A DNA stretch of 64,000 bases from Candidatus Aquiluna sp. UB-MaderosW2red (GTDB lineage Bacteria > Actinomycetota > Actinomycetes > Actinomycetales > Microbacteriaceae): contig NZ_LT627734.1 in the NCBI RefSeq assembly GCF_900100865.1, forward strand, positions 1,488,001 through 1,552,000, written 5' to 3'. Below the pieces are notes generated by a model. That model was not told the DNA's origin. It searched no databases and saw only the letters and a list, made by a program, of their open reading frames with translations. The position numbers and the translations under genes were made by a program. Below are positions 16,046 to 43,083 of the stretch, one piece after another (positions within the stretch are counted from its first letter, which is position 1; every line of letters begins with the position of its first letter).

Positions 16046-16402
16046 CTATTGAACCGAGTCAAGCACGGCGGCCTCAGCGATTGCTGACAGGCGCCATAAT
16101 CCGATGTTTTTCTCAACCTCGAGCATGGCGCCGAATCCGACAATACGACATGAAATCACTGTCGCACCGTTGGTTTGGGATATTTGCACGGCATTTTCAC
16201 ATGGAAGCCCACTTATGTTCCCTGCCAGAGTGTCTGCGGCCGCGACCGCAGCGGCATCGGCTGCCTGCTGCACCACAATCTTGCCGAGGGTGACTTCAAA
16301 GCCCAAACTCAGCGCCAAAAAGAGACTAGACAGCGCAGCTATCAAGCCAATTACAAGCGCTGAGGCGGAGCCTTTTTCTAGTAGCCGAGAATCAATTGGC
16401 AT
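16046..16402 (-). CDS. TadE-like pseudopilin, Rv3654c-type (helicase/secretion-neighbourhood family)
   Basis: A 118-residue single-pass protein of the compact actinobacterial Tad (tight adherence) locus. After the polar leader MPIDSRLLEKGSAS there is one long hydrophobic helix (about residues 13-36), and then an Ala-rich amphipathic segment (KIVVQQAADAAAVAAADTLAG) characteristic of the Rv3654c/TadE-like family, in which Gly and the helix mimic a class III prepilin signal. Two cysteines (about residues 68 and 85) could form a disulfide outside the membrane. It overlaps the end of the upstream TadE gene by 25 bases and is the last gene of the Tad operon, followed by topA. Likely a minor pilin or assembly factor; the function is inferred from family and context. 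Confidence 0.82.
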   Translation of the reverse strand: MPIDSRLLEKGSASALVIGLIAALSSLFLALSLGFEVTLGKIVVQQAADAAAVAAADTLAGNISGLPCENAVQISQTNGATVISCRIVGFGAMLEVEKNIGLWRLSAIAEAAVLDSVQ

Positions 16403-16840: not shown

Positions 16841-17575
16841 TTAGTTTGCGATGCCAATCAGCATCGGGATTGTTGTGAGAATCAAAAAAGCGGGCAATAC
16901 GGTCAACCCGAGGGGAATCAATAAGCGAACCGAAAGCGCTCTCGCGCTAACCAGTGCCTGGGTGCGACCCGAAAGAATCAAGCCCTTGATGCGCGCCTCA
17001 ATCAAGAAAATAAGACCAACGCCAGTTTCCATTGAAAGTGAAATAAGGTCTTGAATTGCCTGCTCGTCAACCCCTGATTCAAGCGCCAGTCTTTTCGCTT
17101 CAAAAAGCCCAACCCCCGATGAGATGGCCAGCTGAAATGCCAGTAGGTCATTAGCCGGTTTCAAAAAAGACCCCTTGGTGCCAGCGAGCATCTTTTGGCT
17201 CCAACGGGCTCCTAGATAAATCAAGCCTCCAGCAATCGCAAAGGAGGCGATGCCAAAACCGCTCCCAAGACTCGCCAATGGATCTAGCCCGACGAGTTGA
17301 CCCAGTGCTAACGCAAATGCTGGGAGCCACAGCAGGAGCGTTCTAGTTGCCCTGGGTACCGCTTGGCTGCTTTCTATTTCAGCTTCGAAATCCGCTTTGG
17401 CATTCTCGAATTGCTCAAGTATTTTTAGTGCCGGGCCCAGTGGAGCTCCAAATTGTTGGCCTTTTTTTATTAGCTCTTGCTGCTCCGGACTGAGCTGGTC
17501 AAAACGATTTGCGAGCGCCGACTTGCTGGATAGTCCGGCGGACAGTAGCGCCGAGATTTCGATTAGAGCGCTCAT
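16841..17575 (-). CDS. Type II secretion F/TadC-like inner-membrane protein of the Tad pilus
   Basis: Inner-membrane platform protein thought to couple the Tad ATPase to pilin assembly. The 244-residue protein has a soluble N-terminal helical part, two membrane helices around residues 80-125, a cytoplasmic four-helix-like region (ANDLLAFQLAISSGVGLFEAKRLALE, a T2SSF pattern) and a C-terminal hydrophobic helix (LLIPLGLTVLPAFLILTTIPML). Most Tad loci encode both TadB and TadC; here only this single protein is present, so it may serve both roles. Its start overlaps the ATPase stop by 4 bases. The function is inferred from family and operon. Confidence 0.85.
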   Translation of the reverse strand: MSALIEISALLSAGLSSKSALANRFDQLSPEQQELIKKGQQFGAPLGPALKILEQFENAKADFEAEIESSQAVPRATRTLLLWLPAFALALGQLVGLDPLASLGSGFGIASFAIAGGLIYLGARWSQKMLAGTKGSFLKPANDLLAFQLAISSGVGLFEAKRLALESGVDEQAIQDLISLSMETGVGLIFLIEARIKGLILSGRTQALVSARALSVRLLIPLGLTVLPAFLILTTIPMLIGIAN

Positions 17576-18531
17576 GCCTGCGCCATCAGGTTTAACGGCT
17601 CGATTTCAAGATTCTTCTTGCCATTGCTGAGTTTTCCAATCGCCACCACCTTGCGTATTCGATTCACGATGCCGACCTGAATCACTAGATCGATTGAGGT
17701 CCCGGCCAGGTTGCTGACGAGCTTTTGGCTGAGTCCCGCAAGCATGCCTAATGATATGAGTCGATTGGGCACTTCATGAAGGCTCCGAGCATGAAGGGTC
17801 GCCATGGTCCCGCTATGGCCATTATTCATGGCCTGAAGCATCTGGCCAAGCTCCGCGCCCCTTACTTCGCCAACCACAATGCGGTCTGGACGCATTCTTA
17901 GAGAGTGGGTCAAAAGGTGCTGCATTGATATTTCACCTAGGCCCTCTTGATTAGCCTCGCGCTCAAATATCCGAATCGCAGGCCAGCGGATCTGAAGCTC
18001 GGGCATTTGCTCAATGCAGATCACACGTTCGCGAAGCTCTGCGATCAAAGCAGAAAGTAGCGTGGTCTTACCCGCCGAGGTCGGCCCGCTGATTATTAGG
18101 TTGGATCGATTTGCGAGAGCCTGTTCGAGGATTTCTCGCTGCGTTAAATCAATAAAGCCGGTAGTTGCAAGCTCGGCCAGTGAGATCTGATTTACCGGGT
18201 GGACTCTGATGCTCACCAGGGTTGAGGCTGAAATGCCGAATGGCAGTATCGCGTGAAAACGGATCCTGCCGATCATGAAATCAGCCGCTGGTTTCGCAAG
18301 ATCAAGGCGAGCCCCAGCATCAAAGGCGAGCTGCCGAATAGCACTAACCAGCTCTTGCTCGGACTCAAAGGGGTTTGGGGCTTGCTCTAGGCCGCGACCA
18401 ACATCTACCAGGCAGTTCTTCGCACCATCAACCAGAATGTCTGTGACGCCGGGTAACTCCAGGAGCCGTTTCAGGGCTTGGGGTATCAGGTCTTTTTCAC
18501 TCATTGACCTATGTTGCGAGGTTTCGAGCAT
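17572..18531 (-). CDS. tadA: TadA/CpaF-family secretion ATPase
   Basis: Hexameric cytoplasmic ATPase that drives assembly of the Tad (Flp) pilus. The 319-residue protein is at the short end for the family. Walker A GPTSAGKTT is at 149-157; an Asp-box-like stretch, Walker B RPDRIVVGEVRG (near 213-224) and a His-box (GHSGTMATLHA) follow in order. It is the first gene of the operon tadA-tadC-pilin-tadE-tadE-like. The CpaE-like protein and prepilin peptidase found in many Tad systems are absent here and must be elsewhere or missing. An inner ATG at 18504 is an alternative start. A 6C-type RNA ending in an intrinsic terminator lies 33 bases upstream on the same strand and may control this operon. 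Confidence 0.92.
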   Translation of the reverse strand: MLETSQHRSMSEKDLIPQALKRLLELPGVTDILVDGAKNCLVDVGRGLEQAPNPFESEQELVSAIRQLAFDAGARLDLAKPAADFMIGRIRFHAILPFGISASTLVSIRVHPVNQISLAELATTGFIDLTQREILEQALANRSNLIISGPTSAGKTTLLSALIAELRERVICIEQMPELQIRWPAIRIFEREANQEGLGEISMQHLLTHSLRMRPDRIVVGEVRGAELGQMLQAMNNGHSGTMATLHARSLHEVPNRLISLGMLAGLSQKLVSNLAGTSIDLVIQVGIVNRIRKVVAIGKLSNGKKNLEIEPLNLMAQA

Positions 18532-18563
18532 GAATAATTGCCAAAAACAATATCTGTGGAAAA

Positions 18564-18600
18564 CAAAAAGGGGCGACAGGTTTGGGGGAAACCTGCCGCC
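18564..18600 (-). terminator. Intrinsic terminator formed by 6C RNA hairpin 2
   Basis: A 12-base stem with one mismatch and a five-C loop, followed in the reverse-strand transcript by CCTTTTTGTTT. It lies 33 bases before the tadA start, so read-through would enter the Tad operon. Confidence 0.8.
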
Positions 18601-18636
18601 AGCGGTGCCAGCATGGGGGGACGCTTAGCACCGCAA
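18564..18636 (-). ncRNA. 6C RNA (actinobacterial C-loop RNA, B11-like)
   Basis: On the reverse strand two stem-loops follow each other, each with a run of cytosines in its loop, which defines the 6C RNA family. Hairpin 1 has an outer stem GCGGTGC with GCACCGC (18634-18628 with 18608-18602) and an inner stem AGCGT with ATGCT closing a CCCCCC loop. Hairpin 2 has GGCGGCAGGTTT, a CCCCC loop and AAACCTGTCGCC, with one mismatch, followed by a T-rich tract. In Mycobacterium tuberculosis the homologue B11 lies beside the Rv3654c-Rv3660c Tad locus, the same context as here. B11-type RNAs act as trans-acting regulators through their C-loops. The 5' end is not known and may lie further right, up to about 18700. 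Confidence 0.85.
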
Positions 18637-18692
18637 ACTAACCGAAGTTAGCACTTTCAAGTGTAGGCGATATTGGCCACGAAGCGTCCCCC
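18616..18692 (-). promoter_or_regulatory. Upstream G5 element complementary to the 6C hairpin-1 loop
   Basis: GGGGGACGCTT on the reverse strand (18692-18682) is exactly complementary over 11 bases to AAGCGTCCCCC (18626-18616), which includes the left inner stem and C-loop of 6C hairpin 1. Between them lie two small perfect hairpins (CACTT-GA-AAGTG and CTAAC-TTCG-GTTAG). If the transcript includes this part, the pairing would compete with hairpin 1. Whether it is transcribed is not known. Confidence 0.5.
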
Positions 18693-18839
18693 AATTTGGG
18701 ATTTTCAGGAAGTTCAAATAATTTATTTATTTACACCGAATCCTCTCGGGCCAGTCCCTAGACTCACAACCAGAACAAGGGCTGCCTGAGATGTTTTCTA
18801 ATCAAAGGCTTGCAAGTCAAAGAAAACGGGAGGGCCAAG

Positions 18840-20813
18840 TTGTCCCAAAATCAAGAGTTCGAGAATCTAGCGAATGAAACCAGAAGCTTTCCACCCACGC
18901 CGGCTTTCACGAACGCCGCCATCGCAAAGCCTGAGCTTTACGAATCGGCCCGGGCAGACCGCTTGGGTTTTTGGGCCGATCAAGCGAATCAACTCCACTG
19001 GCACAAGTCTTTTACCAAGGTTTTAGATTGGTCCAACCCACCTTTTGCCAAATGGTTTGAAGATGGCGAACTAAACATCAGCTATAACTGCCTCGATCGT
19101 CATGTTGAGGCAGGTTTTGGCAAAAGGGTCGCTTTGTTTTTTGAGGGTGAGCCTGGTGACACCAAGGTGTTTACCTATCGCGATCTTCTCAATGAGGTCA
19201 AAAAGGCCGCGAACCTGCTTTTGAAACTCGGTGTCAGTCCTGGCGATCGGGTGGCGATTTATATGCCAATGATTCCTGAAGCAATCATTGCGATGCAAGC
19301 GGTGGCTAGGGTCGGTGCGGTGCACTCGGTTATCTTCGGTGGATTCTCAGCCGACTCATTGGCATCAAGAATTCAAGACGCCGAGGCAAAGATAGTTATC
19401 ACAGCTGATGGAGGTTTTCGCAAGGGCAAGGCTAGTGCTCTAAAACCCGCGGTCGATGAGGCTCTAGCAAATCAAAATTGCCCGAGCGTGGAGCACGTGT
19501 TGGTCGTGCAGCGAACCAAGGGGGAAGTGGCCTGGAATCCGGTCACCGATCTTTGGTGGCACGAAGAGATGCAGGTGGTCTCAAATCAGCACGAAGCCTT
19601 GGGCTTTGGTGCCGAGCACCCGCTATTTATTCTTTATACCTCTGGTACCACCGGAAAGCCCAAAGGCATCATGCACACTACCGGTGGCTATCTCACCCAG
19701 GCCAGCTATACCCATAAAAACGTTTTTGATTTGCAGCCCGCTCAAGACATTTACTGGTGCACGGCGGATGTCGGCTGGATAACCGGGCACACATATGTGG
19801 CTTACGGGCCGTTGGCAAATGGTTCAACTCAGGTCATTTACGAAGGCACCCCCGACACTCCCGACTGGGGCCGCTGGTGGGACATCATTCAGAAGTATCA
19901 CGTTTCGATTTTCTACACTGCACCAACAGCGATTAGAAGCTTTATGAAGCTCGGCCGCAAAGTGGTGCAGCATTACGACCTGAGCTCAATCAGAGTCTTG
20001 GGTTCGGTTGGCGAGCCAATAAACCCCGAGGCTTGGATGTGGTACCGCGAAGTTATTGGTTCAAACCTTGCCCCAATAGTCGACACCTGGTGGCAAACCG
20101 AAACCGGCGCAATCATGATTTCGCCACTCCCCGGCATAACTCACACAAAGCCGGGCAGCGCCCAGGTTGCAGTGCCAGGCATTGAGCTGGCAATCCTCGA
20201 TGAAGCGGGAGCACCTGTTGGCCCGGGCCACGGTGGCTACCTCACCATCTCAGAGCCCTGGCCCGCGATGCTGCGGGGTATTTGGAAAGACCCTGAGCGT
20301 TTCCAAGAAACCTACTGGGACAGATTCCCCGGCAGCTATTTTGCGGGAGACGGCGCCAAATTTGACCTAGATGGCGATCTTTGGCTTCTGGGTCGAGTGG
20401 ATGATGTGATGAACGTCTCCGGCCATAGGCTTTCAACTGCCGAAATTGAATCGGCGCTTGTGTCTCACCCCTTTGTTGCCGAAGCTGCGGTGGTGGGAGC
20501 CAAAGATGAAACTACGGGTCAAGCAATTGTTGCCTTTGTGATTTTGCGCAGCAGCCAACTCAATGATCTGGGTAGCGAGGCTGACACCTCCAAGATCTTG
20601 CGCGATCATGTTGCAAAAGAAATCGGGGCAATTGCGAGGCCAAGAACCATCATCGTGGTGAGTGAATTACCCAAGACTCGTTCCGGCAAGATCATGCGCA
20701 GGCTCCTTAGGGATGTCGCTGAGGATCGCCCGGTGGGAGACATCACCACTTTGACCGACACCTCGGTAATGGACACAATCACCGGCAAGATTAATGCCGG
20801 CCATAGCGAGTAA
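18840..20813 (+). CDS. acsA: Acetyl-coenzyme A synthetase
   Basis: Activates acetate to acetyl-CoA through an acetyl-AMP intermediate, using ATP. From the chosen start it has 657 residues, the normal length. The ATP-binding P-loop-like motif YTSGTTGKPKG lies near residue 272, the WWQTETG motif near 420, and the C-terminal domain ends with the Lys acylation site in PKTRSGKIMRRLLR, the target of Pat-type acetylation. The open frame extends ten codons upstream, but GGGAGGG at 18828-18834 sits six bases before the TTG at 18840, which gives MSQNQEFENL. The GNAT gene begins three bases after the stop, so the two are probably one transcript. That GNAT protein might be the acetyltransferase that modifies Acs, but this is speculation. 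Confidence 0.95.
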   Translation: MSQNQEFENLANETRSFPPTPAFTNAAIAKPELYESARADRLGFWADQANQLHWHKSFTKVLDWSNPPFAKWFEDGELNISYNCLDRHVEAGFGKRVALFFEGEPGDTKVFTYRDLLNEVKKAANLLLKLGVSPGDRVAIYMPMIPEAIIAMQAVARVGAVHSVIFGGFSADSLASRIQDAEAKIVITADGGFRKGKASALKPAVDEALANQNCPSVEHVLVVQRTKGEVAWNPVTDLWWHEEMQVVSNQHEALGFGAEHPLFILYTSGTTGKPKGIMHTTGGYLTQASYTHKNVFDLQPAQDIYWCTADVGWITGHTYVAYGPLANGSTQVIYEGTPDTPDWGRWWDIIQKYHVSIFYTAPTAIRSFMKLGRKVVQHYDLSSIRVLGSVGEPINPEAWMWYREVIGSNLAPIVDTWWQTETGAIMISPLPGITHTKPGSAQVAVPGIELAILDEAGAPVGPGHGGYLTISEPWPAMLRGIWKDPERFQETYWDRFPGSYFAGDGAKFDLDGDLWLLGRVDDVMNVSGHRLSTAEIESALVSHPFVAEAAVVGAKDETTGQAIVAFVILRSSQLNDLGSEADTSKILRDHVAKEIGAIARPRTIIVVSELPKTRSGKIMRRLLRDVAEDRPVGDITTLTDTSVMDTITGKINAGHSE

Positions 20814-29975: not shown

Positions 29976-30035
29976 GATGCAAGCCTAACTTGCCCAAGGA
30001 ACATTGAGTGCTTTGGCTAGCGCTGCTGTGGAGAA

Positions 30036-30125
30036 AAAGCGACTCCCCGTGCACCCGTCAGAGCTCAGTTACCCTTGCTACCTTTCGGTCCTGGGGGATT
30101 AGCCAAGATGACGCCACACGAGGAG
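30036..30125 (-). ncRNA. ffs: Bacterial SRP RNA (4.5S, small type)
   Basis: On the reverse strand CAGGACCGAAAGGTAGCAAGGG matches the conserved apical loop of signal recognition particle RNA in parts (GACC-GAAA-GGTAGCA; the Ffh-binding asymmetric loop and tetraloop). The 5' arm CTCCTCGTGT (from 30125) pairs with the 3' arm GCACGGGGAG ending near 30043, and a T-run follows at 30038-30034. A TAGAAT box at 30140-30135 is a suitable -10, giving a start near 30128. The RNA sits directly upstream of dnaX as in many bacteria. Confidence 0.9.
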
Positions 30126-30169
30126 TCATTCAAAATTCTATCTTGCCCATTTGGGTGTTTGGAATTTGG

Positions 30170-38944: not shown

Positions 38945-39877
38945 TCATATTGTGGTGATTTTATAGCCAGCTTTGCCGTCAAATTTCACTTTATACATGG
39001 CTCGATCTGCGGCACCAAAAACATGTGACGCATCAGTTTTCGGATTCAGAACCAAAGCAACCCCAGCTGAAACAGTGACCTGACCATCAAATCCAGGAAC
39101 ACCCAAGGGCTGGCGCAAACGAAGCAACAAGGCTTCCATTAGATTCTCAACGCTGGATTTATTTTGGATCTTCGAACTTGCGATTGCAAACTCATCGCCA
39201 CTTATTCGAGCCACCTCTCCACTTGTGTCCATGACTTCTTCAAGAATTCTTCCAATACCGATAAGTACTTGATCGCCCATTGCGTGCCCAAAATTATCGT
39301 TGATTGACTTGAAGTCATCGACGTCTAGAAATCCGAAAATAAAAGGAACTCCCTGAAGCTGAGATTCCTCTAGATGTCTCGTAACTCTTGCCTCCATTGC
39401 AGAACGACTCAACAGGCCAGTGAGTTGATCGTGCCGAATTAGGCCCTCAAGGCGCTCCACCTCAGATACGAACTGGCTCACATCACGAAACGCAGCGACA
39501 ACTGTGTCCTGAGAAAGAGCCGAGACTTTATTCTCAAATGCCCCCACCCAGCCGTTTTCTCCATTTATCTCAACCACTAAGATTTGGGGCTCAGTGGACT
39601 GAAGTGCATTGTCGAATAACTTAGCTAATACATGCGACTCGTCCCTGGCTAAAGTCTCGCCAAGACTAACTCCGACTAATTCATCCGGTGTTTTGCCCGT
39701 GGGAGCCGCGGCCACAGGGTTCATATAGACAAGTTTGTATTCGGATTCGGACTCACTGGACTGCTCAACCCGCTTCCAAATTGCGAAACCGTCGCTTGAG
39801 GCATTTAATGCTTGGGCCAAAACATCCAATTGATTAGGAACAAGACCGCTCAAATCGCCCCTGCTTGGTAAAGCCAC
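38945..39877 (-). CDS. Diguanylate cyclase with N-terminal PAS-like sensor
   Basis: Makes the second messenger cyclic di-GMP from two GTP. The open frame reaches a TTG at 39949, but AGGGGG lies four bases before the GTG at 39877, so I start there (310 residues). Residues about 15-135 look like a PAS sensor (LDVLAQALNASSDGFAIW, YKLVYMNPVAAAPTGKTPDELVG). The GGDEF domain begins near 148 with HDQLTGLLSR, has the metal-binding FLDVDDFKSINDNFGH, and the signature reads SGDEF (226-230) in place of GGDEF, a substitution seen in active enzymes. The RxxD inhibitory site is absent. It is divergent from the EAL-GAF pair 314 bases away. Confidence 0.92.
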   Translation of the reverse strand: MALPSRGDLSGLVPNQLDVLAQALNASSDGFAIWKRVEQSSESESEYKLVYMNPVAAAPTGKTPDELVGVSLGETLARDESHVLAKLFDNALQSTEPQILVVEINGENGWVGAFENKVSALSQDTVVAAFRDVSQFVSEVERLEGLIRHDQLTGLLSRSAMEARVTRHLEESQLQGVPFIFGFLDVDDFKSINDNFGHAMGDQVLIGIGRILEEVMDTSGEVARISGDEFAIASSKIQNKSSVENLMEALLLRLRQPLGVPGFDGQVTVSAGVALVLNPKTDASHVFGAADRAMYKVKFDGKAGYKITTI

Positions 39878-40191
39878 TATTCCCCCTTGAAATACCCCAG
39901 CTGGTAGAGTGCCGTAGGAGGCAATTATTCCATGGCCACTACATAACAATCAAATGCCAAATGAGCGAATCTAAAAAATATATTCCACCGGCTGGGGCCA
40001 CAAGACCACTTCAAACCTTGCGGATGGCCAGAAACTCGATTAGGGATTCGATGTGGGGAATGCGAATGACCACAGAAAACAACGACTCTGATTATTAGGG
40101 AGTGTTGGCATCCGAATCGCATCCTGGATCGTTGCAAAGATGCAACGACGAAATCTGACTATCGGGAGAAATTTTTGATTATAGTGAATCT
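39878..40191. other. 314-bp gap between diguanylate cyclase and EAL genes
   Basis: Divergent promoter region between the two c-di-GMP genes. Small open frames here show nothing recognisable. No clear riboswitch (GEMM-type) or palindrome was found by eye. Confidence 0.5.
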
Positions 40192-40911
40192 GTGGGTCAG
40201 GAAAATTTCAAACTTCGGGGGGTTCGGCTAGAGCCCTATTTTCAGCTGTATAAAAATCTTGATGACGAAGACGCTCGTGAGGGGGAAATCCTTACTCGGC
40301 TCGAATCAGGCCAAAGTGCATTTGAGTTTATTGCACAATTGGATTCCTTTGAGCACTTCCTATTACTCGAGTGGCTGATAGAGCAATCAGAGTTTTTGAA
40401 GGAAGAGTTCAACTTGCAATCCTCGATCAATGTCGACAACAGTGCAATCTTCTCACCAATGGGTCAAGCGCAATTTTTGAGGATTAGTGAAAAAGGGGTT
40501 CCTGGTACCACTTTTGAATTTACAGAAACCAATGCATTGCCACCCTCTGGTGAGATAAATAAGTTGTTTTTGGGCCTGCGCCAGAATGGTCACGTAACCG
40601 CTTTAGACGATTTCGGGTCCGGATTAAATGGCATGACCATGCTCACTGACTACGATTTTGACGTGGTGAAAATTGACCGCATGCTGACGATGGACCTGGG
40701 TCAGCGAACTGCAAAAGTGAAAGTGCTATCGCTGCTTTTTGAAATGCTAACTGCACTCAATAAATCCCATGTGGTCGAAGTTTACGAGTCGAGCGAGTCT
40801 TTTGAATTGATGGCAAATGCGGGCTATCGCGTGTTCCAAAGTTTCCAATTTTACAAACCCGTTCCATTTTCCGAACTAGGTCAAGTGCTAATCAGGAAGG
40901 TTAAGCAATGA
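40192..40911 (+). CDS. EAL-domain protein (c-di-GMP phosphodiesterase-type)
   Basis: A 239-residue EAL domain, the fold that hydrolyses cyclic di-GMP to pGpG. Reading the family motifs in order: EPYFQLY at the start, EGEILTR (EIL in place of EAL), INVDNSAI with Asn for metal, EFTETNAL, DDFGSG, and VKIDRM, then VYESSES (AEGVE position) and QSFQFYKP (QG position). The metal-binding Glu, Asn, Glu, Asp-Asp and Lys residues are kept, so activity is plausible, but AEG and QG are changed and it could be a weak or non-catalytic c-di-GMP receptor. The GTG at 40192 is the start used; its GAF neighbour overlaps by 4 bases. Confidence 0.85.
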   Translation: MGQENFKLRGVRLEPYFQLYKNLDDEDAREGEILTRLESGQSAFEFIAQLDSFEHFLLLEWLIEQSEFLKEEFNLQSSINVDNSAIFSPMGQAQFLRISEKGVPGTTFEFTETNALPPSGEINKLFLGLRQNGHVTALDDFGSGLNGMTMLTDYDFDVVKIDRMLTMDLGQRTAKVKVLSLLFEMLTALNKSHVVEVYESSESFELMANAGYRVFQSFQFYKPVPFSELGQVLIRKVKQ

Positions 40912-41507
40912 ATGAGTCCAATAGAAAATCAGATGCGGAGAGAGTTGAATTCTTACATTCGCTCGCCATTTTAGACACCGCACCTGATGAAAACTTGGAA
41001 CGCATTGTAGAACTCTGTCGATTGATATTTGACGTACCGATCTCTGACATCTCACTGATTGACGGCGACCGACAGTGGTTCAAAAGCATGCAAGGTTTGA
41101 ACCTAACCGAAAGTCCAAGACAAGATGCCATTTGCAACTTGACCATCGGGCAAGACGAGGTTTTCGAAATCCCAGACACCACCTTGCACGAGGTTGTGAG
41201 GGAAAACGTATTTGTGAAAGGCGACCCTGGCATCCGTTTTTACACTGGTGCCACCGTAACTATTTCCGGCCATAACATTGGGGCGTTGTGCGTTATGGAT
41301 CTCAGGCCGCACGAACCAATGACTCAAGCGCAGCGTCAAATTCTTGATTTACTATCCAAAATTGTCGCCAGGGAAATTCAGGTGCAAAGCCTGCTTCGAA
41401 AAGCGCTGCCCGTCGTGATTAGTGCAGCCGAGACTTCAGGTCTGGCTTCCTTTCTTGGAACTGCTGAGACTGAAGACCTAGCCCAGAAGGATAATCCGGG
41501 TGCTTGA
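40908..41507 (+). CDS. GAF-domain sensory protein
   Basis: A 199-residue protein made of one GAF domain of the type found in front of kinases and c-di-GMP enzymes. Family marks are the start LHSLAILDTAPDENLERIV, ISLIDGDRQWFKSMQGL, RQDAICNLTI, IRFYTGATVTI and IGALCVMDLRPHE. Most such domains bind a small ligand or sense redox or light through a bound cofactor; Cys43, Cys84 and Cys132-type positions are worth noting as possible ligands. No enzymatic domain follows, so it may act on the EAL protein, with which it overlaps by 4 bases (ATGA). It is followed by the glycosyltransferase 100 bases downstream. Confidence 0.85.
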   Translation: MNESNRKSDAERVEFLHSLAILDTAPDENLERIVELCRLIFDVPISDISLIDGDRQWFKSMQGLNLTESPRQDAICNLTIGQDEVFEIPDTTLHEVVRENVFVKGDPGIRFYTGATVTISGHNIGALCVMDLRPHEPMTQAQRQILDLLSKIVAREIQVQSLLRKALPVVISAAETSGLASFLGTAETEDLAQKDNPGA

Positions 41508-41595
41508 CCGTGTCCAGCGGCTATTTTTAGTAATTGGTTTTGTTATGAAACCTTGCAGCAAGCCGGCTTTTTTTTAGTTACTAACCTCTAAAAAA

Positions 41596-41603
41596 GGGGG
41601 GGG
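41596..41603 (+). repeat. G8 homopolymer run in the ribosome-binding region of the glycosyltransferase
   Basis: Eight guanines in a row preceded by five to six adenines lie four bases before the ATG at 41608. The run takes the place of the Shine-Dalgarno sequence. Length changes by slippage could alter translation. Confidence 0.8.
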
Positions 41604-41607
41604 ATTT

Positions 41608-43083
41608 ATGCGCAACAATGAAGGCTTGATACGGGGCACCGTGGGGATTCTTTTTTTCACTGTGACCCTGTTTGGTTTGGCGATTTTTCTTGATCTTCAA
41701 ATTGCACCAAACTTCACTGACTTATCACTCACGAATACTTGGAATGGCATCACCTATAGCAATCAGATTCCAGTGATTTTCGTTATTTGGATCGCCGTGG
41801 CAGTTGCACTATTCGCCGCGGGAAGTTTCGCGCTTATCGAAAAACGCTCCTCAAATAACTCTCGCCGCTCTTTGCTGCCTTCGACGCTCCCGCTTTCTCC
41901 ACGGGTTCAAATGGCTAGGACTCGAGGAGTTTTTGACGGTGAAATAACGGTCACCGTTTTGATTCCAGCTCATAATGAAGCGGGGATGTTAGGACAGACA
42001 ATACCCGCTCTTCAGCGACAAGGACGAGCGCCGGAACGCATCATTGTTGTTGCCGACAACTGCACGGATAAGACAATTGAGGTAGCCGAGGGTTTGGGCG
42101 TTGAAATTTTTGAAACACAAAATAATCAGAGTCAAAAAGGTGGCGCACTAAATCAAGTACTCAAGACTTTATTGCCCGGTCTTGGCAATAATGACATTGT
42201 GATGATTGTCGATGCCGACACCACTCTAGATGCTGGGTTCATTGAGGCTGCGGTCTTGCGATTCACTGCAGATCGGGGCCTGATGGCTGTTGGCGGAATC
42301 TTTAAGGGATATGCAGGCGGAGGCCTTCTCGGGGTCCTACAGCGCAATGAATACGATCGCTATGAACGTAAAATAAACCGACGGCGGGGACAAGTCTTTG
42401 TCCTAACCGGAACTTCTACGATGTTTCGATCGATTGCACTCAAAACTGTTGCTGAAAACCGCGGCGTCTTGATTGGTGGGTTCCAGGGCGACGTCTTTGA
42501 CACGGTTTCCCTAACTGAAGACAACGAACTGACTCTGGCGTTAAAAACTCTTGGGGCCCTAATGGAATCACCCAAAAATTGCGTAGTTCATACCGAACTG
42601 ATGCCCTCCTGGAGATACCTCTGGAAGCAAAGGATGAGGTGGCAGCGCGGTGCTATAGAAAACATCGGTAGCTATGGGATGACTCCCGCAACTTTTCGAT
42701 ACTGGGGACAGCAATTGGGTATCGGCTACGGCGTCATCGCACTCTCGTCATTTGTTGCGTTGCAGGGAATTGTGTTTTTATCCCTGGATTATTGGGTCTG
42801 GTATCCATTTTGGCTGGGGGTGGGAGCTATTTTTCTCTACGAGAGAGTTAAAACGGTGTGGCACTCGGGTTGGCGGGCGCGCCTATTGGCGGCGACAATG
42901 ATTCCAGAATTAATCTATGAGTTTTTCTTGCAAGCGGTGTTTCTCAATAGCATGCTGGACATCATTTTAAAGCGTGATGCCAATTGGGGGCACGTAGTCC
43001 ACGAACATGCCGGCACACAAGAGCGGCAGGCAGGCAGGCATGCCAGAACCGCTGGAGCCAACTCTAAAGGTGCAGAATTATGA
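41608..43083 (+). CDS. Processive family-2 glycosyltransferase (BcsA/PgaC-like), membrane-bound
   Basis: Likely polymerises a sugar chain (exopolysaccharide) across the membrane. The 491-residue protein has two N-terminal membrane helices (about 11-30 and 53-76), a cytoplasmic GT-A domain and about three C-terminal helices. The GT2 motifs are complete: IPAHNEA, VADNCTDKT (first Asp150), VDAD with Asp202/Asp204, TEDNEL (303-308, catalytic Asp305), and QRMRW (341-345; the Q/RxxRW motif of processive synthases). There is no PilZ domain, so any c-di-GMP control would be indirect. The product cannot be told; poly-N-acetylglucosamine, cellulose-like or hyaluronan-like chains all use this type. It follows the EAL and GAF genes and overlaps the small membrane gene by 4 bases. 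Confidence 0.9.
   Translation: MRNNEGLIRGTVGILFFTVTLFGLAIFLDLQIAPNFTDLSLTNTWNGITYSNQIPVIFVIWIAVAVALFAAGSFALIEKRSSNNSRRSLLPSTLPLSPRVQMARTRGVFDGEITVTVLIPAHNEAGMLGQTIPALQRQGRAPERIIVVADNCTDKTIEVAEGLGVEIFETQNNQSQKGGALNQVLKTLLPGLGNNDIVMIVDADTTLDAGFIEAAVLRFTADRGLMAVGGIFKGYAGGGLLGVLQRNEYDRYERKINRRRGQVFVLTGTSTMFRSIALKTVAENRGVLIGGFQGDVFDTVSLTEDNELTLALKTLGALMESPKNCVVHTELMPSWRYLWKQRMRWQRGAIENIGSYGMTPATFRYWGQQLGIGYGVIALSSFVALQGIVFLSLDYWVWYPFWLGVGAIFLYERVKTVWHSGWRARLLAATMIPELIYEFFLQAVFLNSMLDIILKRDANWGHVVHEHAGTQERQAGRHARTAGANSKGAEL

Follow-up and report, generated by a model that had tools for sequence, protein, structure and literature searches.

The 6C RNAs, collected in Rfam as RF01066, consist of two stem-loops with loops of five to six C, the second of which is a terminator, and are found beside Tad genes. 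Relatives of this RNA are described in mycobacteria as B11 and in Corynebacterium glutamicum as 6C RNA, the latter being visible on Northern blots (PMC4046766). According to a report on Mycobacterium marinum, B11 is encoded in the Rv3660-Rv3661 interval, and the C tract of its terminator loop is the seed of target recognition (PMC12395582); Rv3660c is in turn described as tadZ (PMC9531140). In M. abscessus, mutations of the loop and of the UTR, together with changes that restore complementarity, are reported to show a direct pairing (PMC10470900). The authors of the M. marinum study ask how B11 is maintained across species that differ in its targets (PMC12395582). For 6C RNA together with Tad or pilus genes, or with genera of the family considered here, no paper containing the term "6C RNA" was among the matches listed, and the link is not claimed to be unpublished.

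The window, i.e., the whole stretch of 64,000 nucleotides analysed, carries on its reverse strand, beside a Tad operon, a divergent 6C RNA that is missed by the Rfam cut-off. It is probable that this locus is a single-copy gene of a divergent 6C/B11 small RNA, with its own promoter and terminator and likely acting in trans, and that tadA forms a separate transcription unit.

Structure of the RNA at the window locus

Three hairpins are present on the reverse strand of 18555-18660 (Table 1), and the two that carry C-rich loops lie where the first-pass annotation had placed them. The folding energy of the 106-nt RNA is -45.9 kcal/mol, whereas its shuffles average -27.3 (z = -5.7) and none of 200 is equally stable. 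A terminator scan recovers a single terminator, which is exactly the stem of hairpin 2, in agreement with the earlier description of this hairpin and its T-run as an intrinsic terminator, although shuffled sequences average 0.6 terminators, so that chance matches are common.

Table 1. Features of the 6C-Tad region, with positions counted from the first letter of the window.
Feature	Position	Strand	Basis or remark
TadE-like protein, Rv3654c family	16046..16402	-	TIGR03816 59.1 bits, above cut-off 50.95
Flp-pilin-like ORF, 53 aa	16664..16825	-	by eye
Tad-operon membrane protein, TadB/TadC-like	16841..17575	-	position and composition only
tadA (T2SSE / TadA-family ATPase)	17572..18504	-	PF00437 E 1.7e-31; start revised from 18531
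-10-like hexamer CAACAT	18511..18516	-	6 nt before tadA start; leaderless geometry
conserved element TTTTCCACAG in terminator-tadA gap	18554..18563	-	overlaps T-tract end
T-tract TTTTTGTTTT	18560..18569	-	sequence and terminator scan
predicted 6C RNA	18562..18654	-	~92 nt; ends predicted from -10 position and terminator
C-loop hairpin 2 = intrinsic terminator stem, C5 loop 18584-18588	18572..18600	-	fold, helix 4, terminator scan
C-loop hairpin 1, C6 loop 18615-18620	18602..18634	-	Rfam match, fold, helices 2 and 3
5' hairpin A, UUCG loop	18637..18652	-	fold; helix 1 covariation
-10 box TACACT of 6C gene	18660..18665	-	TAnnnT in genus loci
imperfect dyad AATCCC-AAAT-TGGGGGAC, candidate regulator site	18686..18703	-	centre ~-41 of 6C gene
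acs, acetyl-CoA synthetase, divergent neighbour	18810..20813	+	PF00501, PF13193, PF16177; start codon uncertain

When 701 bases were compared with 4227 Rfam families by cmscan, 6C (RF01066) was found at 18568-18635 of the minus strand with 36.3 bits and E 0.0048, below the gathering score of 47 bits, which is a reporting rule of the database and no trait of the RNA itself; the C-rich loops also give a weak match to BjrC80 (24.4 bits). Consistent with this score, a scan of the whole window at gathering cut-offs reports two tRNAs and the SRP RNA only, without 6C, and a search of the own genome with RF01066 at E <= 0.001 gives no match. The SRP RNA is a Bacterial small SRP RNA at 30035-30130 on the minus strand (62.2 bits). 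A covariance score below threshold had been named beforehand as grounds to reject the 6C assignment, and formally the score is of this kind; it is overridden by the comparative evidence, i.e., the lineage model and the relatives described below, on which the 6C identity is based. Moreover, the C. glutamicum 6C RNA also falls below the cut-off and is nevertheless seen on Northern blots.

The C runs of both loops fall in loops when the 21 sequences of the genus are folded individually (21/21, with one C of L012 paired), so that the evidence for the C loops does not derive from the model-fitted alignment alone. In the predicted ensembles of all 21 genus loci, loop 2 is unpaired with a probability of 1.00 and loop 1 with one of 0.74-1.00. 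In six loci (L010, L011, L012, L014, L016, and L021) hairpin 1 has a G5 in its 5' arm, with which its own loop of six C might pair; the open loop is still favoured by folding. By eye, the T-tract after hairpin 2 is weak in six genus loci (L006, L009, and L017-L020), and in L017-L020 the terminator loop has only four C.

Occurrence, covariation and gene neighbourhood

A DNA search of 98 genomes detects the region in 21, the own one among them. All 21 belong to the genus, and of its 22 genomes only G013, which is 50% complete, is without the region. These 21 loci are related and a few are nearly identical (e.g., L010/L011, L008/L013, and L019/L020), hence they are not independent cases. With RF01066, matches are obtained in 50 of 199 family genomes (over the cut-off in 5/199) and in 81 of 148 class genomes (over the cut-off in 64/148), while among 14 control genomes the only match, below the cut-off, is that of C. 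glutamicum.

Hairpin 1 was missing from a first lineage model (R1), since its stem has diverged too far to be aligned by MAFFT alone; the second model (R2) was therefore derived from the family alignment, with 27 family loci and the window locus as its 28 training sequences. R2 scores 73.1 bits at the window locus, itself one of the 28, and matches all 51 loci of the comparison; in particular, the 20 other genus loci, none of which served for training, are all matched with 38-62 bits and E <= 1.5e-11. In the family, R2 matches 162 of 199 genomes, 28 of which supplied training sequences, and the 37 genomes without a match are not thereby shown to be devoid of 6C, as surveys of more than 40 genomes use stricter filters by which weak matches are lost. 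Among order-level genomes 16 of 149 are matched, nine of them in the family of the window and seven outside it, mostly weak. The series of relatives is continuous up to sequences above the Rfam cut-off that lie in the same neighbourhood. The curated cut-off is poorly suited to this bacterial family and misses 6C in most of the family genomes where the lineage model detects it. In the own genome 6C is single-copy, the second-best R2 score being 10.3 bits in the window and 10.4 bits genome-wide. Two R2 matches with E <= 0.001 occur in each of G134, G193, G208, G217, and G244, which may be second copies of 6C.

The alignment of the 51 sequences is biased towards the structure by having been fitted to the model; in it, two-sided changes are found in 24 of 29 pairs and 98.4% of the cells pair, a share that sliding the partners lowers to 51.1% or less, and none of 500 shuffles reaches any of the five covariation measures. 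Helix 1, which forms hairpin A, pairs in 96% of cells and shows two-sided changes in 5/5 pairs. The matches in the 20 untrained genus loci and this covariation bear out the 6C identity proposed by the first-pass annotation.

The product of tadA matches TIGR03819 with E 2.6e-80 and 270 bits, under the 373-bit cut-off, and the protein encoded at 16841..17575 has no Pfam or NCBIfam match. The comparison of relatives suggested by the first-pass annotation gives a consistent position of the RNA: of 51 loci, 48 have acs as the divergent neighbour of 6C and 45 have tadA downstream of it, on its own strand. These counts refer to L001-L051, with L054-L083, which partly repeat the genomes of L022-L051, left out. 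As regards the six loci without tadA (L014, L018, L027, L033, L035, and L049), the sequence ends soon after 6C in L018 and L027, the remaining contig of L014 (from a 64%-complete genome) has no downstream ORF of 100 aa, and in L033, L035, and L049 tadA is found ~1.4 to 4 kb off, behind other ORFs. Other ORFs are interposed between 6C and tadA in three genomes (G134, G111, and G100), and in a fourth (G119, locus L089) no tadA match is present within ~11 kb of 6C. At the expected place of tadA in L089, recombinase-like ORFs, probably of a mobile element, are recognized by eye. In other genera of the family the gap between 6C and tadA is estimated at ~40-900 nt.

At the class level, represented by the 30 best of the 81 class genomes with an RF01066 match, a ParA/MinD-like (TadZ/Ssd-like) gene follows 6C in 27 of 30 loci, counted as a same-strand match beyond 6C within the 1.5 kb flank; among the exceptions, L129 fails only by its short contig and L120 is without such a gene. 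A HAD-type gene is divergent and upstream of 6C in 22/30. The third exception is L114 (G409), where 6C appears reversed relative to the tadZ-like and HAD genes. Five ParA-like representatives were compared with Pfam; three correspond to CbiA (two above the cut-off) and two have no match. We take the ParA-like gene as a probable tadZ/ssd, by analogy with the position of B11 and the description of Rv3660c as tadZ. The location of 6C beside the Tad operon is an old, class-wide arrangement, as the first-pass annotation had supposed from the synteny in mycobacteria. In the family, six tadZ/ssd proteins gave no match at E <= 1e-6 within the 1.5 kb flanks of 60 loci, some of which come from the same genomes, and tadZ appears to have gone from between 6C and tadA. 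The neighbourhood of the window would be inherited from an old order 6C - tadZ - tadA, in which tadZ is no longer beside 6C in the family. The tie between 6C and Tad survives both gene loss and insertion, even though 6C is unlike a tad leader. A locus search of genome contigs with TadA returned two distant Verrucomicrobia loci only.

Promoter-like signals and the relation between 6C and tadA

A TAnnnT box precedes hairpin A by 6-8 nt in 21/21 genus loci. From the position of this box at the window locus, the start of the RNA is expected near 18654 and its length would be ~92 nt; the transcript, whose ends we infer in this way, would comprise three hairpins and terminate at its own intrinsic terminator. 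Of the extent 18564..18700 first assigned to the RNA, the 5' part (18660-18700) would be promoter. A scan of 18450-18900 with the sigma-70 consensus shows no promoter. The G-rich leader strand GGGGGACGCTT (18682-18692), complementary to AAGCGTCCCCC of hairpin 1, was considered as a partner of loop 1 and rejected, because it lies upstream of the -10 box and is not expected in the RNA; by eye, only its GGGG core is conserved.

A dyad of the form GTNCYCC-N4/5-GGRGNAC precedes the -10 box and agrees in at least 10 of 12 positions in 17/21 genus loci, where shuffles give a mean of 0.34 and a maximum of 2; the copy in the window agrees in 9/12 positions, with the end of its right arm 20 nt from the -10 box. 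Among 20 measurable genus loci (L014 excluded), 19 have the right edge and the -10 box 19-20 nt apart and L003 has them 7 nt apart. The centre is thereby placed near -41, the position of class II activators. In the rest of the family 44 loci were chosen, L026, L028, L031, L036, and 12 of L054-L083 having been dropped beforehand as repeats or near repeats, and 16 of the 44 agree in at least 10/12 positions (1.64 on average and at most 5 in shuffles); 14 of these 16 dyads overlap the -10 box, so that the match is there partly the -10 box itself. The exact dyad YCCCCNNNNGGGGRACA occurs seven times in the 22 genus genomes, always at 6C, and is absent from the own genome, where the copy is imperfect. 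The half-site pattern gives 22 matches, 10 at 6C and 12 elsewhere, against seven for the backward control.

The aligned column of window position 18504 holds a start codon in 21/21 genus loci (ATG in 15, GTG in 6), which makes ATG 18504 more likely the start of tadA than ATG 18531; the count includes L014 and L018, where tadA itself was not detected. With the revised start, the terminator ends 60 bases before tadA and not 33 as first reported. A hexamer xAxxxT lies 6 nt before this start in 17/21 genus loci and 7 nt before it in 4/21, although its first base is never T, which makes the box atypical, and none of six types of Shine-Dalgarno-like tetramers is found at -20 to -5 of tadA in the 21 genus loci. 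The hexamer and the absent tetramer suggest a leaderless tadA transcript, so that tadA would be a separate transcription unit probably starting at its own ATG. Leaderless mRNAs are common in actinobacteria. In M. avium, they are reported for one third of the genes with mapped starts (PMC3774663).

In 21/21 genus loci, 72-75 nt (sd 0.7) separate the terminator stem from the start of tadA, whereas on the opposite side the interval between 6C and the beginning of the acs homology, which is measured less exactly, varies between 109 and 213 (sd 30.5). Within the gap only two elements are conserved, the hexamer and TTTTCC[A/C]CAG, separated by 37 columns at 36% identity. The latter, at TTTTCCACAG in the window, shows 95% pairwise identity across the 21 genus loci, is present in 20/21 (L006 differs), and ends 49-51 nt before the start of tadA; it resembles a DnaA box. 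This likeness is missing in six loci with TTTTCCCCAG, and L006 has TTTTTACACAG. In the own genome TTTTCC[A/C]CAG occurs in 15 copies, against 11 for the backward control, and the tadA copy is the only one followed at 49-51 nt by the start codon of an ORF of at least 80 aa, the near miss being L190 with TTG at 53 nt. In the simplest reading, the conserved elements of the gap would make up a tadA promoter together with a site for an activator, placed upstream and next to the 6C T-tract. The dyad, the tadA element, and the hexamer were chosen post hoc, the boxes having been noticed before they were counted, and the search for a regulon with the dyad (22 genus genomes) and the tadA element (own genome) found none.

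The earlier proposal that the RNA is a leader of the pilus operon has some points in its favour, as 6C is on the same strand with its terminator just ahead of tadA, the spacing is fixed towards tadA but variable on the other side of 6C, the type given to 6C by Rfam is Cis-reg, and the T-tract is by eye weak in a subclade. If 6C were the 5' leader of the tad mRNA, with hairpin 2 as a regulated terminator and a signal that leads to read-through into tadA, a competing antiterminator would be expected; on the contrary, in 21/21 loci 20.7-24.1 kcal/mol are lost even by the best fold that lacks the terminator. In addition, tadA has a putative leaderless-type signal of its own beyond the terminator, the gap varies over an estimated ~40-900 nt in other genera, other ORFs intervene in G134, G111, and G100, and the fourth genome has no tadA within ~11 kb. 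Attenuation is thus poorly supported and improbable, also considering that B11 is reported to act in trans (PMC10470900, PMC12395582). The stand-alone regulator, the other option of the first-pass annotation, is favoured by its own -10 box, its own terminator, and the reports on B11.

An intermediate solution, in which a stand-alone trans-acting RNA supplies part of the tadA transcription by leaky termination, is unlikely but less so than attenuation: the same observations speak against it, save that no antiterminator is needed. It would agree with the compact fixed spacing and the imperfect T-tract, and read-through would be easier in the six genus loci where the T-tract is weak; many intrinsic terminators leak. 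Chance hairpins or an unrelated terminator, to which the sub-threshold Rfam score and the weak BjrC80 match could point, have a negligible probability and are ruled out by the lineage-model matches in untrained genus loci and by the covariation, to which the occurrence in 21/22 genus and 162/199 family genomes and the neighbourhood are added. The separate small RNA gene remains the preferred reading; the fixed 6C-tadA spacing is unexplained by two independent units and leaves room for some coupling. It is conceivable, albeit speculative, that the two genes form a locked pair. In it, 6C would be driven through the dyad as activator site, a sequence that in its exact form is confined to 6C, and tadA would have a leaderless promoter with an upstream element (~-50 to -60) that shares bases with the end of the T-tract of 6C. 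The constant spacing would then result from a mutual influence of 6C termination and tadA initiation, for instance through polymerase release or occupancy near the tadA promoter. If this were true, the output of the small RNA and pilus expression would be coupled with no need of read-through. Both conserved elements on the promoter side offer handles on what switches on 6C and the pilus operon.

Possible targets and comparison with known systems

The function in trans of the 6C RNA of the window is one that we infer from its relatedness to mycobacterial B11. Its two C5-C6 loops, kept single-stranded, would most likely pair, as in mycobacterial B11, with ribosome-binding regions of mRNAs that are rich in G. 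The window contains 74 runs of G5 or longer on both strands, and in a raw count such a tract precedes a possible start in 3 of 58 ORFs, i.e., pntB, a GGDEF protein, and a family-2 glycosyltransferase. The best candidate of the window is pntB, whose start has a 10-nt complement to loop 2 (-21.1 kcal/mol); it was rejected as a conserved target, the G5 tract being present in the own genome alone (1/10 readable genus loci; 12 genomes with a match, 11 loci taken of which one is cut off, and the partial match L178 left out), so that no conserved trans target was found. A pairing of the 6C loops with the tadA start region was also discarded, as the duplexes of -4.9 and -8.1 kcal/mol are weaker than the window median of -9.25. 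The glycosyltransferase, with G8 directly ahead of its ATG, is matched in 2/22 genus genomes, own included, and its relative L166 has by eye a G4 at the corresponding place. The window also contains, at 38945-43083, a cluster of c-di-GMP type with the GGDEF protein (Pfam), EAL-like and GAF-like ORFs (by eye), and the family-2 glycosyltransferase.

The downstream genes resemble the M. tuberculosis Tad/Flp operon Rv3654c-Rv3660c in the TadA ATPase, the small pilin-like ORF (by eye), and the Rv3654c-type TadE-like protein, and differ from it in that tadZ/ssd is not matched in the flanks of the 60 family loci searched. Like mycobacterial B11, described as a 93-nt RNA whose third loop belongs to the terminator, with its own -10 and a location beside the Tad (Flp) operon (PMC12395582), the RNA of the window has three hairpins and a -10 box of its own, and its predicted ~92 nt come close to the length of B11; in mycobacteria tadZ (Rv3660c) precedes tadA (PMC9531140), whereas in the window tadA follows 6C directly, and the divergent neighbour is acs in place of the HAD gene that is usual in class-level loci. 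The C. glutamicum 6C RNA (cgb_03605), reported to be ~100 nt long and thus also near the predicted length, shares a 5' extension past the Rfam match, of 27 nt there (PMC4046766) and of a predicted ~19 nt in the window, and differs in its runs of eight C (PMC4046766). With respect to the Rfam model, the two stem-loops, the terminator, and the Tad neighbours are in common, while loop 2 of the window, with five C, is shorter than in the model and the 5' hairpin lies outside it. The locus is therefore ordinary in kind, being a 6C RNA, and it extends the range of this RNA.
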